This document shows positions 21,355 through 27,676 of a stretch of 64,000 bases of DNA, one piece after another. Within the stretch, counting starts at the first letter, position 1. The number at the start of each line of letters is the position of its first letter. The DNA comes from Holophagaceae bacterium (GTDB taxonomy: Bacteria; Acidobacteriota; Holophagae; Holophagales; Holophagaceae). The position numbers were made by a program, and so were the translations under genes. Below the pieces are notes generated by a model that saw only the letters and a program-made list of their open reading frames with translations, searched no databases and had not been told where the DNA came from. The DNA lies in contig JAJTBS010000005.1 of assembly GCA_021286765.1 (NCBI GenBank), positions 124,001-188,000 on the forward strand. Reading direction: 5' to 3'.

Positions 21355-21392
21355 CCTTCGGGTTCCTCCTGCAACTGCTTTTTGGAGTGTCC

Positions 21393-22694
21393 ATGTCCGC
21401 GGCCCAGCCGAAGTCCCCCCGGTTCCTCCGCCGCCTCGTCCTGCTGGAGGAAGGGGAGGGGACCGCGCTGCTCTGGTCCACGAGCTACTTCTTCCTGCTG
21501 TTCTTCGGCTACTACCTGCTGCGCCCCGTGCGCGAGGCCATCGGCATCGCCCGGGGCGCCGACAAGCTGCCCTGGCTGATGACGGGCACCCTCTTGGCGA
21601 TGGTGCTGGCCAACCCGGCCTTCGCGGTCCTGGTATCCAAGCTGCCACGGCGGCGCTTCATCCCCTGGACCTACCGGTTCTTCGCCCTCAACATGCTGGC
21701 CTTCTTCCTGGCCTTCCGCTTCCTGCCCCACCGCGGTCCCGCGCTGGGCTACGCCTTCTACATCTGGCTCAGCGTCTTCAACCTCTTCGTGGTCTCCGTG
21801 TTCTGGGGCCTGATGTCCGACGTGTGGTCCGAAGACCAGGGGAAGCGGCTCTTCGGGTTCATCGCCACGGGCGGCACCCTGGGCGCCATCGCGGGCGCGG
21901 CGCTCACCGGGGCCCTGACCAAGGGCTTCACGCTGGGCGGCCTCGCCGTGAAGGTGGATCCCCTTTCCCTGCTGCTGCTCTCCATGCTCACGCTGGAGTT
22001 GGCCGTGCAGTGCGTGAAGCGGCTCGCGTCCATCTTCCGGCTGGGTGATACGGCCCATGGCACCCGCGAGCCGGGCCCCGGGCTGCTCGAGGGTCTGCGC
22101 CTCATCGCCACCTCGCGGTATCTGCAGCTCATCTGCGCCTACATGCTGCTCTTCACCATCACCAGCACGTTCCTCTACCTGCAGCAGGGCAGCATCGTCG
22201 AGCGGGCCTTCAGCGGCACCGCCGCCCGCACGGCGGCATTCGCCCGCATCGACCTCTGGGTGAACGTGCTCACCCTGGCCACCCAGGTCTTCCTCACGGG
22301 GCGGCTCATCACGGCCCTGGGCATCCCCTTCGTGTTGGCCATCCTGCCGGTGCTGACCCTGGCAGGCTTCGGGGCGCTCTGGATCTGGCCCACCTTCGGC
22401 GTCATGGCCATCTTCCAGGTCCTGCGGCGGGGTCTCCACTACGCGGTGGACCGCCCCGCCCGGGAAATCCTCTACATTCCCCTGGGCCCCGAGGAACGCT
22501 ACAAGTCGAAGCCCTTCATCGACACCTTCGTCTACCGGGGCGGCGACCTCCTGGGCGTGTGGGCTCCCACCGCCCTGGCCGCCCTGGCCATTCCCTTGGG
22601 GCTCGCGGCCGTGGGCTGTTCCAGCCTTTGGATCGGCAGCAGCCTGGTGCTTGGAAGCCACGTGAAGGCCAAGGATTCCGAGGATCCTGGTTGA
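21393..22694 (+). CDS. ATP/ADP-translocase-like (NTP/NDP exchange) membrane transporter
   Basis: A 433-residue polytopic protein with about 10-12 hydrophobic segments, resembling MFS-related nucleotide translocases of the Tlc/ATP:ADP antiporter group. Features include YYLLRPVREAIGI near the first helix, FWGLMSDVWSEDQGKRLFGFIATGGTLGAI, and the C-terminal DRPAREILYIPLGPEERYKSKPFIDTFVYRGGD. The ATG at 21393 has GGAG 6 bases upstream; a GTG two codons earlier is also possible. Free-living bacteria with such proteins do not use them for energy parasitism, so the substrate is open. Its stop overlaps the -35 element of the thr promoter. Confidence 0.75.
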   Translation: MSAAQPKSPRFLRRLVLLEEGEGTALLWSTSYFFLLFFGYYLLRPVREAIGIARGADKLPWLMTGTLLAMVLANPAFAVLVSKLPRRRFIPWTYRFFALNMLAFFLAFRFLPHRGPALGYAFYIWLSVFNLFVVSVFWGLMSDVWSEDQGKRLFGFIATGGTLGAIAGAALTGALTKGFTLGGLAVKVDPLSLLLLSMLTLELAVQCVKRLASIFRLGDTAHGTREPGPGLLEGLRLIATSRYLQLICAYMLLFTITSTFLYLQQGSIVERAFSGTAARTAAFARIDLWVNVLTLATQVFLTGRLITALGIPFVLAILPVLTLAGFGALWIWPTFGVMAIFQVLRRGLHYAVDRPAREILYIPLGPEERYKSKPFIDTFVYRGGDLLGVWAPTALAALAIPLGLAAVGCSSLWIGSSLVLGSHVKAKDSEDPG

Positions 22695-22718
22695 CTTTTC
22701 AGCCGCTTCCCGGATGAT
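22691..22718 (+). promoter_or_regulatory. Candidate promoter of the thr operon
   Basis: TTGACT (22691-22696) and GATGAT (22713-22718), 16-base spacing, overlapping the stop of the preceding gene. Transcription from here would give a leader of about 190 bases ahead of thrA, containing the threonine-rich peptide and terminator. Confidence 0.4.
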
Positions 22719-22791
22719 GGCGGACATGCCGTTCCCGTTGAACCCCATGCCGTCCCGGTCCGCCAGCCACGCTGGCGAGGGCCGCCTCCGC

Positions 22792-22848
22792 ATGGTCAAC
22801 ACCAATGGCATTACCACCACCACGCACACCGCCGTGCGGGGCACCTGA
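22792..22848 (+). CDS. thrL: Threonine-rich thr operon leader peptide
   Basis: A short reading frame encodes MVNTNGITTTTHTAVRGT: 7 Thr and 1 Ile in 18 codons, with four consecutive Thr codons (22813-22824). It ends 69 bases before thrA and 22 bases before an intrinsic terminator. By analogy with enterobacterial thrL, charged threonyl-tRNA would let the ribosome reach the stop and permit termination, while shortage would stall it at the Thr run. The same frame is open back to an ATG at 22714, so the true start is uncertain. An upstream hairpin CGCCAGC/GCTGGCG (22761-22777) may be a pause site. Confidence 0.75.
   Translation: MVNTNGITTTTHTAVRGT
22836..22842 (+). promoter_or_regulatory. Antiterminator arm of the thr attenuator
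   Basis: GCGGGGC (22836-22842), inside the last codons of the leader peptide, is exactly complementary to GCCCCGC (22872-22878) in the 5' arm of the terminator. A ribosome at the leader stop codon would cover it. A ribosome stalled at the Thr codons would leave it free to pair and disrupt the terminator. Confidence 0.6.
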
Positions 22849-22870
22849 CCTGATCCCACCTTCAGATCTC

Positions 22871-22903
22871 AGCCCCGCGAACCCCACGCGGGGCTTTTTC
22901 GTT
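22871..22903 (+). terminator. Attenuator terminator of the thr operon
   Basis: A 9-bp perfect stem AGCCCCGCG/CGCGGGGCT (22871-22879 and 22887-22895), loop AACCCCA, followed by TTTTTCGTTT. It lies between the leader peptide and thrA, where a simple terminator would abolish thr expression, so conditional termination is expected. Confidence 0.75.
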
Positions 22904-22917
22904 TCCCCGGAGTGCCC

Positions 22918-25395
22918 ATGTCCCTGCAGCCCATCCGCGTCATGAAGTTCGGCGGCACCAGCCTGGCCGATGCGGACCGGTTCCGCACGGTGGCGGAGCT
23001 GGTGGGCTCCGCCTGCGCCACCCACCGGGTGTGTGTGGTGGCCTCGGCCATGGCGGGCATCACGAACCTCCTGCTGCATGGGGGGCGTGTCCCCAACCGC
23101 GAGGAGGCGGACCGCCTGCTGGAGGCGTTCCGGGATCGGCACGCCCAGGTGCTGGCGGATCTGGCAAAGGACCTGGGCGCTGAGGCCGGGCCGGTTCAGG
23201 GGGAGCTGGAGGGCCTTGAGGCGCTGGGCCGCCGCCTCCTGCACGGCATGGCCCTGCTGGAGGAAGGACCCCCCTCGGTGCTGGCCCAGGTGTCCAGCCT
23301 CGGGGAGCGGGCCTCCTCCCTGATCCTGACGGCCCTGCTGAAGGCCCAGGGCCTGGCAGCCAGGTATCTCGATCCCGTGGAGCACATCAAAGTCGAAGGC
23401 GATCCCCTGCAGGCCCGGCCCCGCATGGCCGACATCGAGACGGCCTTCGCTGCCGTGGCGTCCGGTCCGGGAGGGCTCTGGGTGCTGCCGGGCTTCTTCG
23501 GCGGGGATGCCCAGGGCCGCATTCTCTCGCTGGGCCGCGGCGGCTCGGACCACAGCGCGGCCCTGGCCGCCGCGGCCCTGAAGTCGGAGCTGCTGGAGAT
23601 CTGGACCGATGTGGCGGGCCTCTACAGCGCCGATCCCTCGCTGGTGCCCGAGGCCTTCCCGCTGCCCGAAGCGAGCTTCGAGGAGGCCATGGAGCTCTCC
23701 TTCTTCGGGGCGAAGGTCCTCCATCCGAAAACCATCCCGCCCGTGCGTGAGCGGGGCATTCCTGTGCGCGTGTGCAGCAGCTTCGACCCTCTCCATCCCG
23801 GCACCGTGATCCGCGAAGAGGTGCCGCCGCCGCCCAGCGGCGTGCGCGGCCTCTCCTTCCTGCGGGACCTCACGGTGGTGAACCTCACGGGTCCGGGCAT
23901 GCCCGGCGTGCCCGGCATCGCGGGCCGCGTGTTCGGCGCCCTGGCGCGGCGGGGCATCTCCGTGGTGCTCATCACGCAGAGTTCCTCCGAGCTCTCCATC
24001 TGCTTCGCCGTGCGTCGGGCCGATGGTCCGGGCGCCGTGGCGGCCATCCAGGAGGCCTTCCCGGCGGAGCTGTCCGCGGGCTTCATCGATCCGGTGCTCC
24101 TGCGTCCGGGCCTGGCCGTGCTCAGCATCGTGGGTGACGGCATGCGCACGCGGCCCGGGGTGGCGGGTACCTTCTTCGACGCGTTGGCGGAGGTGGGCTG
24201 CAACGTGGTGGCCATCGCCCAGGGCGCCAGCGAGCGAATCATCTCCGCGGTGGTGGAGGAGGCCGACGGTGCCCGGGCCATGGCCCACATCCACCGCCGC
24301 TTCTTCCAGACCCAGGTGGTGGTGGACGTGCACCTGCTGGGCGCGGGCAATGTGGGGGGCAGCCTGCTGGGCCAGATCCAGCGCCAGCATGACCAATTGC
24401 TGAGCTTGGGCCTCGACCTCCGTGTGGCCACCGTGGCCACCAGCCGGCGCGTGACGATGGATGCCAAAGGCGTGGACCTCACGCGGTGGCGGGAGGAGCT
24501 GGCCCAGGGCGCCCCCATGGACCTGGACCTGCTGCTGGATTCGGTGCGCACGGGACCGCCCGCCCTGTCCGTGCTGGTGGACTGCAGCACCAGCGGGGAG
24601 CTGGCCGCCCGCTACCCCGACATGTTCGACGCGGGCTTCCACGTGGTGACGGCCAACAAGAAGGCCAACAGCAGCAGCCAGGGCTTCTACCGGGAGCTGC
24701 GCCAGCGCTCCTCGAAGCGAGGCCTTCGCTTTCTCTACGAGGCCAACGTGGGCGCGGGCCTGCCCATCATCGACACGGTGAAGAACCTGGTCATGACCGG
24801 CGACCGCGTGCTGCGGGCCGAGGGCATCCTGTCAGGCTCCATGTCGTACATCCTGGGCCTGCTGGGCGAGGGGGTTGCCCTCTCCGAGGCCGTGAGGCGC
24901 GCCAAGGAGAGCGGCTTCACCGAGCCTGATCCCCGGGACGACCTCAGCGGCATGGACGTGGCGCGCAAGCTGCTCATCCTGGCCCGCGAGCTGGGTCTGG
25001 AGCTGGAGCTGGACGATGTGGCGGTGGAAGGCCTGCTGCCGGCGGACTTCGATGCCACGGGCGACATCCCCGCGTTCATGGCTCGCCTGCCTCAGCTGGA
25101 TGCACCCTTCCGCGAGCGACTGGCCAGCCTGAAGGCCGAAGGCAAGACGCTCCGTTATGTCGGCTCCCTCTCCGAGGGCGGCTGCCGCGTGGGCCTGCTG
25201 CCCGTGGACGCAGAGCATCCCTTCATCGCCATCAAGGGCGGCGAGAACGCCCTGGCCCTGCTCACCGAGCGCTATCAGCCCCATCCCATGGTCATCCGCG
25301 GCTACGGGGCCGGGGCCGAGGTCACGGCCGCGGGTGTGCTGGCGGACATCCTGCGGCTGGTGCCTCCCGGCGCCCGCCCGGCGCGGAGGCTGTGA
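22918..25395 (+). CDS. thrA: Bifunctional aspartate kinase / homoserine dehydrogenase
   Basis: An 825-residue fusion enzyme that catalyses the first and third steps from aspartate to threonine. The N-terminal aspartokinase begins [11 protein letters not shown] and extends to about residue 300. Two ACT-type regulatory regions follow (about 315-465). A homoserine dehydrogenase then begins with the NAD(P) motif [10 protein letters not shown] near residue 475. Start: the ATG at 22918, with GGAG 5 bases upstream; a GTG two codons earlier is less likely. Feedback control by threonine is expected from the ACT domains. It is followed by thrB with a 1-base overlap. Confidence 0.95.
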
Positions 25396-26411
25396 TGGCG
25401 GGCCTTTCCGACCTGCCCGCCACGGGCCTGGTGGCCTACGCCCCCGCCAGCATCGGCAACCTGGCCGCGGGCTTTGACCTGCTGGGCGCGGCCCTGGCCC
25501 CCCTGGACGGCAGCCTTCTGGGGGACCTGGTGCATGTGGACCACGCGGCCGAGTCCTCTTTCCAGATCACCGGCCCCTTCGCTGCGGCGCTGGCAGATGA
25601 CACCCGCCCCAACCTCGCGCTGCAGGTCCGCGATCTCTTCGTGGAGGCCGTGCGGACGCGGGGCGACGAGGTGGGCCCCTTCGCCATCACCCTGGAGAAG
25701 CGCCTGCCCGTGGCCAGCGGTCTGGGTTCCAGCGCCAGCTCCATCGTGGCCACCCTGGTGGCCCTGCAGGCCCTCTGCGGCGAGCCCCTGGACGGCTCCG
25801 ACCTGCTCGACCTGGCGGGCCGGGCGGAGGGTCTCACCAGCGGCGGCCGGCACCTCGACAACGTGGCACCTTCACTCCTGGGCGGGCTCCAGCTGATGGT
25901 GCCCGGGCGAGGCGGCGCCCCCGCCACCCGTCGCCTGCCCTGGCCCTCGGACCTGCTGCTGGTGGTGGTGCACCCGGCCTTCCAGTTGTCCACGGCGAAA
26001 AGCCGCAGCGCGCTTCCGGAGCGCCCGGAGTGGGGCGCCACCGTGGACTTCGCCGGCAATCTGGCAAGCCTGGTGCAAGCCCTCCACAGCGGTGACCGCG
26101 CCCTGCTCAGCCGCTGCCTGCGCGACCCGATCGTGGAGGTCCACCGCGCGCCGCTGGTGCCAGGGTTCCATGCCGCCCAGGCTGCGGCGAGGCAGCTGGG
26201 TGCCCTGGGCTGCAGCCTGTCGGGTTCGGGCCCCTCGATGTTCGCCGTGGCGGAGGATGAGGCCCAGGCCGCGGCCATCAGCGACGCCATCCGCAGAGCC
26301 TTTGCCGAGGCCGGATTGGAGAGCCGGGCCTGGATCTGTGCCCTGGATCCCGATGGGGCCCGCGTCATCACCCCTGGTTCGCATCATCCGTCGCGCGAGG
26401 CCCACCCATGA
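25395..26411 (+). CDS. thrB: Homoserine kinase
   Basis: A 338-residue GHMP-family kinase that phosphorylates homoserine. The phosphate-binding loop is LPVASGLGSSASSIVATL, the N-terminal motif is YAPASIGNLAAGFDLLG, and the C-terminal GSGPSMFAV motif is present. The ATG shares one base with the thrA stop (TGATG). A GTG one codon earlier could also start. It overlaps thrC by 4 bases, which indicates coupled translation in thrABC. Confidence 0.93.
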   Translation: MAGLSDLPATGLVAYAPASIGNLAAGFDLLGAALAPLDGSLLGDLVHVDHAAESSFQITGPFAAALADDTRPNLALQVRDLFVEAVRTRGDEVGPFAITLEKRLPVASGLGSSASSIVATLVALQALCGEPLDGSDLLDLAGRAEGLTSGGRHLDNVAPSLLGGLQLMVPGRGGAPATRRLPWPSDLLLVVVHPAFQLSTAKSRSALPERPEWGATVDFAGNLASLVQALHSGDRALLSRCLRDPIVEVHRAPLVPGFHAAQAAARQLGALGCSLSGSGPSMFAVAEDEAQAAAISDAIRRAFAEAGLESRAWICALDPDGARVITPGSHHPSREAHP

Positions 26412-27676
26412 GACTGGTCAGCACACGCACGCCCGATCTTTCCGCCACCTTCGTCGAGGCCGTGCAGGCGGGGCTCGCCCCGGATGGCGGGCTCTTCGTG
26501 CCGGCGACGATGCCGCGTTTTGCCGATGTTCCCGACCTGCTCAAGCTGGACTTCGCCACCCGCTCGGTGGAGATCCTCCAGCGGCTGCTGGGCGATGAGA
26601 TTCCCCGCGAGGTCGTGGCGCAGCTGGCGCGCTCCGCCTTCACCTTTCCGGCTCCCCTGGTGCCGGTGGAGGGCCGAATCGGGGCCCTCGAGCTCTTCCA
26701 TGGACCCACCCTGGCCTTCAAGGACTTTGGCGCGCGGTTCCTGGCCCGCGTGCTGGCGCTGGGCGCCGAAGGCCGCCGTCGCACGGTGCTGACGGCCACC
26801 TCCGGCGACACCGGCGCCGCCGTGGCCAGCGCTTTCCACGGCCTGCCCGGGGTGCAGGTGGTGGTGCTCTATCCGGCGGGCCGCGTGTCGCCCTTGCAGG
26901 AGCGCCAGTTCGCCACCTGCGGCGGCAACGTGCTGGCGCTGGCCGTCGAAGGCGCCTTCGACGACTGCCAGCGCCTGGTGAAGGGGGCCTTCGATGATGC
27001 CGAGCTGGTGGGGCGCCTGGGCCTGACGTCCGCCAACAGCATCAACATCGCCCGGCTGCTGGCGCAGACACTCTACTACTTCGAGGCTGTGGCCCAGGTT
27101 GAGGACGATGCGCCCCTGGTGGTCTCCGTGCCCAGCGGCAACTTCGGCAACCTCACGGCGGGGCTCTGGGCGCAACGGATGGGCGCTCCGATCTCCGCCT
27201 TCGTGGCCGCCACCAATGCCAACCGCGTGGTGCCGGACTACCTCGACTCCGGTGTGTACCAGCCCAAGGCCTCGGTGGCCACACTGTCCAACGCCATGGA
27301 CGTGGGCTCGCCAAGCAACTGGGAGCGCATCCACTCGCTGTTCGATGGCGACCACGAGGCCATGACCGCCGCCCTCCGCTGGGGCAGCTGCACCGATGAG
27401 GCAACCGAACAGATCGTGCTCGACCTGGATCGGGCTGGTTACCTGGCGGATCCCCACGGGGCCGTGGCCTGCCATGTGCTCCGGGCCAACCTGCGCGAGG
27501 GTGAGCGGGGCGTCTTCCTCGCCACGGCCCACCCGGCCAAATTCCGCGAAGCCCTGGCCCCGGCCGTCGGTCGGGACATCCCGTTGCCCCAGGCACTGAG
27601 CGATCTGCTGGAGCTGCCGCTGCTCCACGAGCCCCTGGCCACCGATCAGGCGGCGCTGCGGCGACGCCTGATCTGA
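26408..27676 (+). CDS. thrC: Threonine synthase
   Basis: A 422-residue PLP enzyme that converts phosphohomoserine to threonine. The PLP lysine motif is GPTLAFKDFGARFL, followed by LTATSGDTGAAVASAF and the phosphate-loop segment VPSGNFGNLTAG. The length fits the class seen in Gram-negative bacteria. Last gene of thrLABC. No clear hairpin is seen in the 34 bases before the convergent peptidase gene. Confidence 0.94.
   Translation: MRLVSTRTPDLSATFVEAVQAGLAPDGGLFVPATMPRFADVPDLLKLDFATRSVEILQRLLGDEIPREVVAQLARSAFTFPAPLVPVEGRIGALELFHGPTLAFKDFGARFLARVLALGAEGRRRTVLTATSGDTGAAVASAFHGLPGVQVVVLYPAGRVSPLQERQFATCGGNVLALAVEGAFDDCQRLVKGAFDDAELVGRLGLTSANSINIARLLAQTLYYFEAVAQVEDDAPLVVSVPSGNFGNLTAGLWAQRMGAPISAFVAATNANRVVPDYLDSGVYQPKASVATLSNAMDVGSPSNWERIHSLFDGDHEAMTAALRWGSCTDEATEQIVLDLDRAGYLADPHGAVACHVLRANLREGERGVFLATAHPAKFREALAPAVGRDIPLPQALSDLLELPLLHEPLATDQAALRRRLI

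Follow-up and report, generated by a model that had tools for sequence, protein, structure and literature searches.

A conserved candidate threonine attenuator ahead of thrABC in Holophagaceae (Acidobacteriota)

Does the short stretch of DNA that separates a transporter-like gene from the threonine operon of an acidobacterium carry an attenuator working on the principle of thrL in E. coli? According to a study of 2010, hardly any function had been assigned to the attenuators predicted in Acidobacteria; its authors had known leader-peptide systems from Proteobacteria and Actinobacteria alone and then extended them to Firmicutes (PMC2965389). In the literature that we searched, whose coverage was incomplete, we found no description of a threonine attenuator in Acidobacteria. 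We have analysed a stretch of 64,000 nt (hereafter the window) that, according to a search with its ThrA protein, belongs in or beside Geothrix, a soil bacterium of the Holophagaceae (Acidobacteriota). An earlier note on this DNA had proposed a leader peptide, a terminator and an alternative pairing ahead of thrA.

The leader region of thrABC

The element occupies positions 22691-22917, between the transporter-like gene and thrA-thrB-thrC (22918-27676), whose identities were assigned with NCBIfam models (Table 1). No homoserine dehydrogenase other than ThrA was found in the genome, so that the operon would also feed methionine. The distal part of the leader reads MVNTNGITTTTHTAVRGT* and comprises 18 codons, of which seven encode Thr and one Ile. 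When both strands of the 64-kb window were scanned for at least 7 Thr among the 18 codons preceding a stop, a single site was found, the one described here, and a terminator follows it. The terminator hairpin consists of 9 bp closed by a 7-nt loop and is succeeded by a T run. Thus, a Thr-rich leader, an antiterminator strand and an intrinsic terminator ahead of thrABC are real. As a side observation, the TGA stop codon of the transporter-like gene falls inside the -35 box of the thr promoter.

Table 1. Features of the thrABC leader region and neighbouring genes (positions in the window)
Feature	Position	Strand	Basis or remark
TLC-type transporter-like gene	21387-22694	+ (same strand as thrA)	upstream neighbour
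-35 box TTGACT	22691-22696	+	consensus scan, 9/12 matches
-10 box GATGAT, 16-nt spacer	22713-22718	+	consensus scan
Leader peptide ORF, 40 codons, probable leaderless start at +1, MPFPLNPMPSRSASHAGEGRLRMVNTNGITTTTHTAVRGT	22726-22848	+	ATG 35 nt after the start of the -35 box
Thr-rich distal part of the leader, putative control codons (18-codon ORF of the earlier note)	22792-22848	+	codon counts
Antiterminator 5′ strand GCGGGGC, codons -4 to -2 before the stop	22836-22842	+	exact complement of 22872-22878
Antiterminator 3′ strand GCCCCGC, also the terminator 5′ arm	22872-22878	+	complementarity, folding
Intrinsic terminator AGCCCCGCG-AACCCCA-CGCGGGGCT and T run	22871-22900	+	hairpin 22871-22895
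thrA, fused aspartate kinase/homoserine dehydrogenase I (AK-HSD I)	22918-25395	+	NF006959, 953.7 bits (cut-off 726)
thrB, homoserine kinase	25392-26411	+	TIGR00191
thrC, threonine synthase	26408-27676	+	TIGR00260

Conservation of the leader and position of its start codon

The upstream regions of thrA in related genomes were gathered by ThrA search. The element was recovered at 54 distinct loci from eight Holophagaceae genera, namely g1 (the Geothrix group), g3, g4, g5, g6, g7, g9 and g10. At each of the 54 an intrinsic terminator is present, located 25-39 nt after the end of the Thr-rich frame, and across these loci the Thr enrichment, the terminator and the complementarity between leader and terminator are kept despite differing sequences. 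The leader frame runs uninterrupted in 54/54 loci, compared with 7 and 31 loci for the two alternative frames. The element was absent ahead of an aspartate kinase gene in one Holophagaceae genome (G053, L131). Overall, these data give good support to a threonine attenuator element that is family-wide in Holophagaceae.

Where translation of the leader begins was examined at the 52 of the 54 loci that hold the relevant upstream sequence. All of them carry a TTGAC/TTGC-type -35 box at the equivalent place, with GAAGAT, TAGAGT, TACACT or TAGGCT as equivalents of the -10 box, and in all of them an ATG that shares the frame of the Thr codons lies exactly 35 nt (42 loci) or 36 nt (10 loci) after the -35 box. 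The ORFs starting there range from 23 to 48 codons, their lengths being always multiples of three and always in frame. The rival possibility is an attenuator with a normal 5′ UTR whose 18-codon leader begins at the ATG at 22792, led by a Shine-Dalgarno sequence, and in the window a GAGGG motif does occur about 11 nt upstream of that codon. We regard such a start as unlikely, since 22 of the 54 relatives lack any in-frame ATG from codons -31 to -13, as opposed to the invariable presence of the promoter-linked one; a Shine-Dalgarno-like 5-mer at the usual place was seen at only 1 of the 52 loci. The true start is probably the ATG at 22726, because it is the only one that is conserved and always coincides with the predicted +1. 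An mRNA whose AUG sits at the predicted transcription start would be leaderless, a reading that the position of this codon strongly supports. Leaderless genes have been predicted to make up 13.3% on average of the genes in three Acidobacteria genomes (Zheng et al., PMC3160421).

The composition proposed in the earlier note for the distal leader is thus retained, but the start that it had placed at 22792 gives way to a leader of probably 40 codons. Its terminator and the 7-base match between the leader end and the terminator arm were both confirmed, and close relatives have lost neither the Thr codons nor the pairing, an outcome that it had named in advance as evidence against an attenuator: both are kept in the eight genera, the pairing by means of changed sequences.

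A further alternative is that the hairpin is a plain terminator of the upstream transporter gene, that the thrA promoter lies further down and that the Thr-rich ORF is incidental. The transporter gene runs in the same direction as thrA and stops at 22694, and an intergenic terminator would be ordinary, but the Thr-rich frame, the promoter-linked start codon and the complementarity are all kept in eight genera, and the conserved -35/-10 pair is found upstream of the leader, not between the terminator and thrA. Codon counts also speak against it. In representative leaders, 74 of 210 codons of the distal part encode Thr, compared with 18 of 307 in the proximal part (P = 1e-17), and in leaders across genera Thr accounts for 32% of codons -18 to -5, versus 4.4% in the proteins of the window, a 7.2-fold difference. 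We consider the plain terminator very improbable.

Leaders also differ from window genes in the codons chosen. Ile is written ATT at a ratio of 47:18, against 9:112 in window genes (P = 3e-20). ACT, a rare codon for Thr, is used in excess as well (P = 3e-5). The presence of ATT and ACT, rare in window genes, in leader codons -18 to -5 (22795-22836) may be linked to a choice of codons that are sensitive to starvation. We also considered, and rejected, a broader signal of the aspartate family: Met, Asn and Ile look enriched in leaders with respect to window proteins, but not significantly so when the proximal leader half serves as reference (P from 0.10 to 0.49), and only Thr is claimed as control codon for this reason.

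Alternative pairing and the proposed mechanism

Compared with shuffled sequences, the terminator stretch folds with z = -4.5 and the leader end together with the terminator 5′ arm with z = -3.7. When folding starts at 22825, with the footprint of a stalled ribosome removed, the antiterminator is formed (-29.1 kcal/mol); when it starts at 22855, with the footprint of a ribosome at the stop codon removed, the terminator is formed. Geometry and folds therefore agree with a mutually exclusive antiterminator whose strand would be covered by a ribosome at the stop codon yet free on stalling. If a ribosome occupies the stop codon, the terminator is predicted with a probability of at least 0.88 at each locus. 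If the antiterminator strand is left free instead, the balance between the two structures varies widely among relatives, and in many of them (for example L010, L014, L016, L025, L031, L042, L079, L083 and L087) the terminator is still favoured at thermodynamic equilibrium. Equilibrium folding alone does not show the switch in every relative, and in such relatives the switch must be kinetic, that is, co-transcriptional, because equilibrium there favours the terminator. The antiterminator of g7 is weak, about -11 kcal/mol.

Since the register of the antiterminator shifts between genera, column-wise covariation was set aside and tests with swapped partners and with recoded leaders were used in its place. 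By genus, the antiterminator strand reads GCGGGGC, GGCCGGTC, CGGGGGTA, GGGGACGG or GGGGCTGGTC, each complementary to its own terminator arm. Leader ends paired with their own arms outperformed shuffled partners, none of 20000 permutations reaching the true mean energy, a count in which kinship within genera is ignored. Synonymous recoding of the last eight leader codons usually made this pairing weaker (combined P = 7e-6 with one locus per genus), and the best complement to the terminator arm was the leader end in 35 of 54 upstream regions.

Taken together, we consider it very probable that the element controls thrABC as a ribosome-mediated transcription attenuator. Transcription by RNA polymerase would start at about 22726, and a ribosome would initiate on the 5′-terminal AUG and translate the leader peptide of 40 codons. 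When Thr-tRNA is plentiful, this ribosome would reach the UGA at 22846 and cover the antiterminator 5′ strand, allowing the terminator hairpin to fold and transcription to end before thrA. With scarce Thr-tRNA, it would stall in the Thr run at 22813-22824 and leave that strand free to pair with the terminator 5′ arm, so that the terminator would be blocked and thrABC transcribed. A response of the operon to threonine is suggested by analogy with E. coli thrL. Of all the alternatives the least credible is a metabolite-binding riboswitch, a T-box or a protein-dependent attenuator: terminator/antiterminator pairs are common to these classes and such pairing is found here, but tRNA was the only Rfam family above its own cut-off in the window (no T-box or riboswitch among the weak matches), the conserved signal consists of fixed-frame Thr codons rather than an aptamer, and the antiterminator strand lies precisely within the stretch that a terminating ribosome would cover.

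Origin of the operon and comparison with known systems

The Rfam model of the threonine leader, RF00506 (Thr_leader), gave the window element 12.7 bits (E = 9.3), far below the gathering cut-off of 55 bits, and no match above this cut-off was found in any of 77 genomes of the order; the controls from E. coli, Proteus and Aeromonas scored 122, 59.7 and 56 bits, respectively. The Holophagaceae element would thus represent a well-supported family-wide leader-peptide attenuator in Acidobacteriota that Rfam misses.

The proteins of the operon point towards gammaproteobacteria. Geothrix ThrA is 46% identical to that of E. coli and 36-40% identical to the fused ThrA of other acidobacterial families. 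Whether or not long branches were included in the tree, the ThrA proteins of Holophagaceae and of gammaproteobacteria (the latter drawn from plasmid-collection records) form one clade with support of 100/100 and 100/99, and other Acidobacteriota ThrA fall outside it. ThrC of the Geothrix group shares about 50-54% identity with that of E. coli, the other acidobacterial ThrC examined being lower. Because the ThrA clade, the thrABC order and the ThrC identity are common with gammaproteobacteria, the operon and its control are probably shared by horizontal transfer. The ThrA tree thus suggests that a regulated operon moved between phyla, and where it had been proposed that the same gene order and control either evolved in this lineage or were acquired, the second option is favoured over the first. 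A bolder version, which we hold to be rather doubtful, is that the attenuator moved between phyla with the operon and was rebuilt on a leaderless mRNA, where it would sense both threonyl-tRNA and the capacity for leaderless (70S) initiation; if true, the latter would give thrABC a second, stress-linked input.

Fused thrA genes are preceded by Thr-rich leaders elsewhere too. In the acidobacterial family f24, a Thr-rich leader, a terminator and an antiterminator lie ahead of fused thrA (L137-L142, L145), in 6 of 6 examined g87 genomes with the fused gene and in one g185 genome. The start ATG of this leader is about 10-13 nt after a -10-like box, TAGTCT or TAGCCT, and its stop codon lies inside the antiterminator. 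The f24 element resembles that of Holophagaceae in having a Thr-rich leader, a terminator and an antiterminator strand at the leader stop, whereas its stem sequence is unrelated (GGGCCATCATCC) and its ThrA distant; no similarity to thrB or thrC was found beside f24 thrA in the stretch examined. The origin of the f24 leader looks independent of the Holophagaceae one, and Thr-leader control seems to occur more than once around fused thrA genes. In further acidobacterial families with a fused ThrA, f22 and f47 among them, no such leader was found.

Two other upstream regions deserve mention in their own right. On a plasmid of Rufibacter tibetensis (Bacteroidota; L168:180-520), a Thr/Ile-rich leader of 36 codons, MRHTPFTTISIIITGTSATTGTTGYCTRGKAKSRNT, lies ahead of thrA together with a strong terminator, and this leader is not recognised by Rfam. 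In Bacteroides finegoldii (L166:180-520), a short ORF with Thr and Met codons, MMKYYPHTVTSMCTMTLRG, lies upstream of thrA with no obvious terminator.

A leader peptide translated from the very end of its RNA has a precedent in trpL of Sinorhizobium meliloti, where the ATG of the leader sORF is at the RNA 5′ end (PMC7298713). The Holophagaceae leader is predicted to share this arrangement, although the S. meliloti attenuator deals with tryptophan in an alphaproteobacterium and the present one with threonine. With its start codon at a fixed position, the Holophagaceae element lends itself to a test of attenuation on a leaderless mRNA.

The closest parallel is thrL of E. coli and other gammaproteobacteria (RF00506), with which the Holophagaceae element has in common the thrABC order, a Thr/Ile-rich leader and an antiterminator strand at the end of the leader ORF that is complementary to the terminator 5′ arm. 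The E. coli thrL end, GGTGCGGGCT, is a 10-nt complement of its own terminator arm, AGCCCGCACC, giving a 10-bp antiterminator. The proposal that thrABC is controlled here by E. coli thrLABC-like logic is supported by this common layout. The compactness once singled out as special is not, since masking of the antiterminator by a ribosome at the stop codon is the design of E. coli thrL too. In contrast to E. coli thrL, the Holophagaceae leader probably starts at the predicted +1 without a 5′ UTR; it contains few Ile codons and belongs to another phylum. From its anatomy and conservation, we infer that the element is a conserved threonine attenuator of the classical kind.
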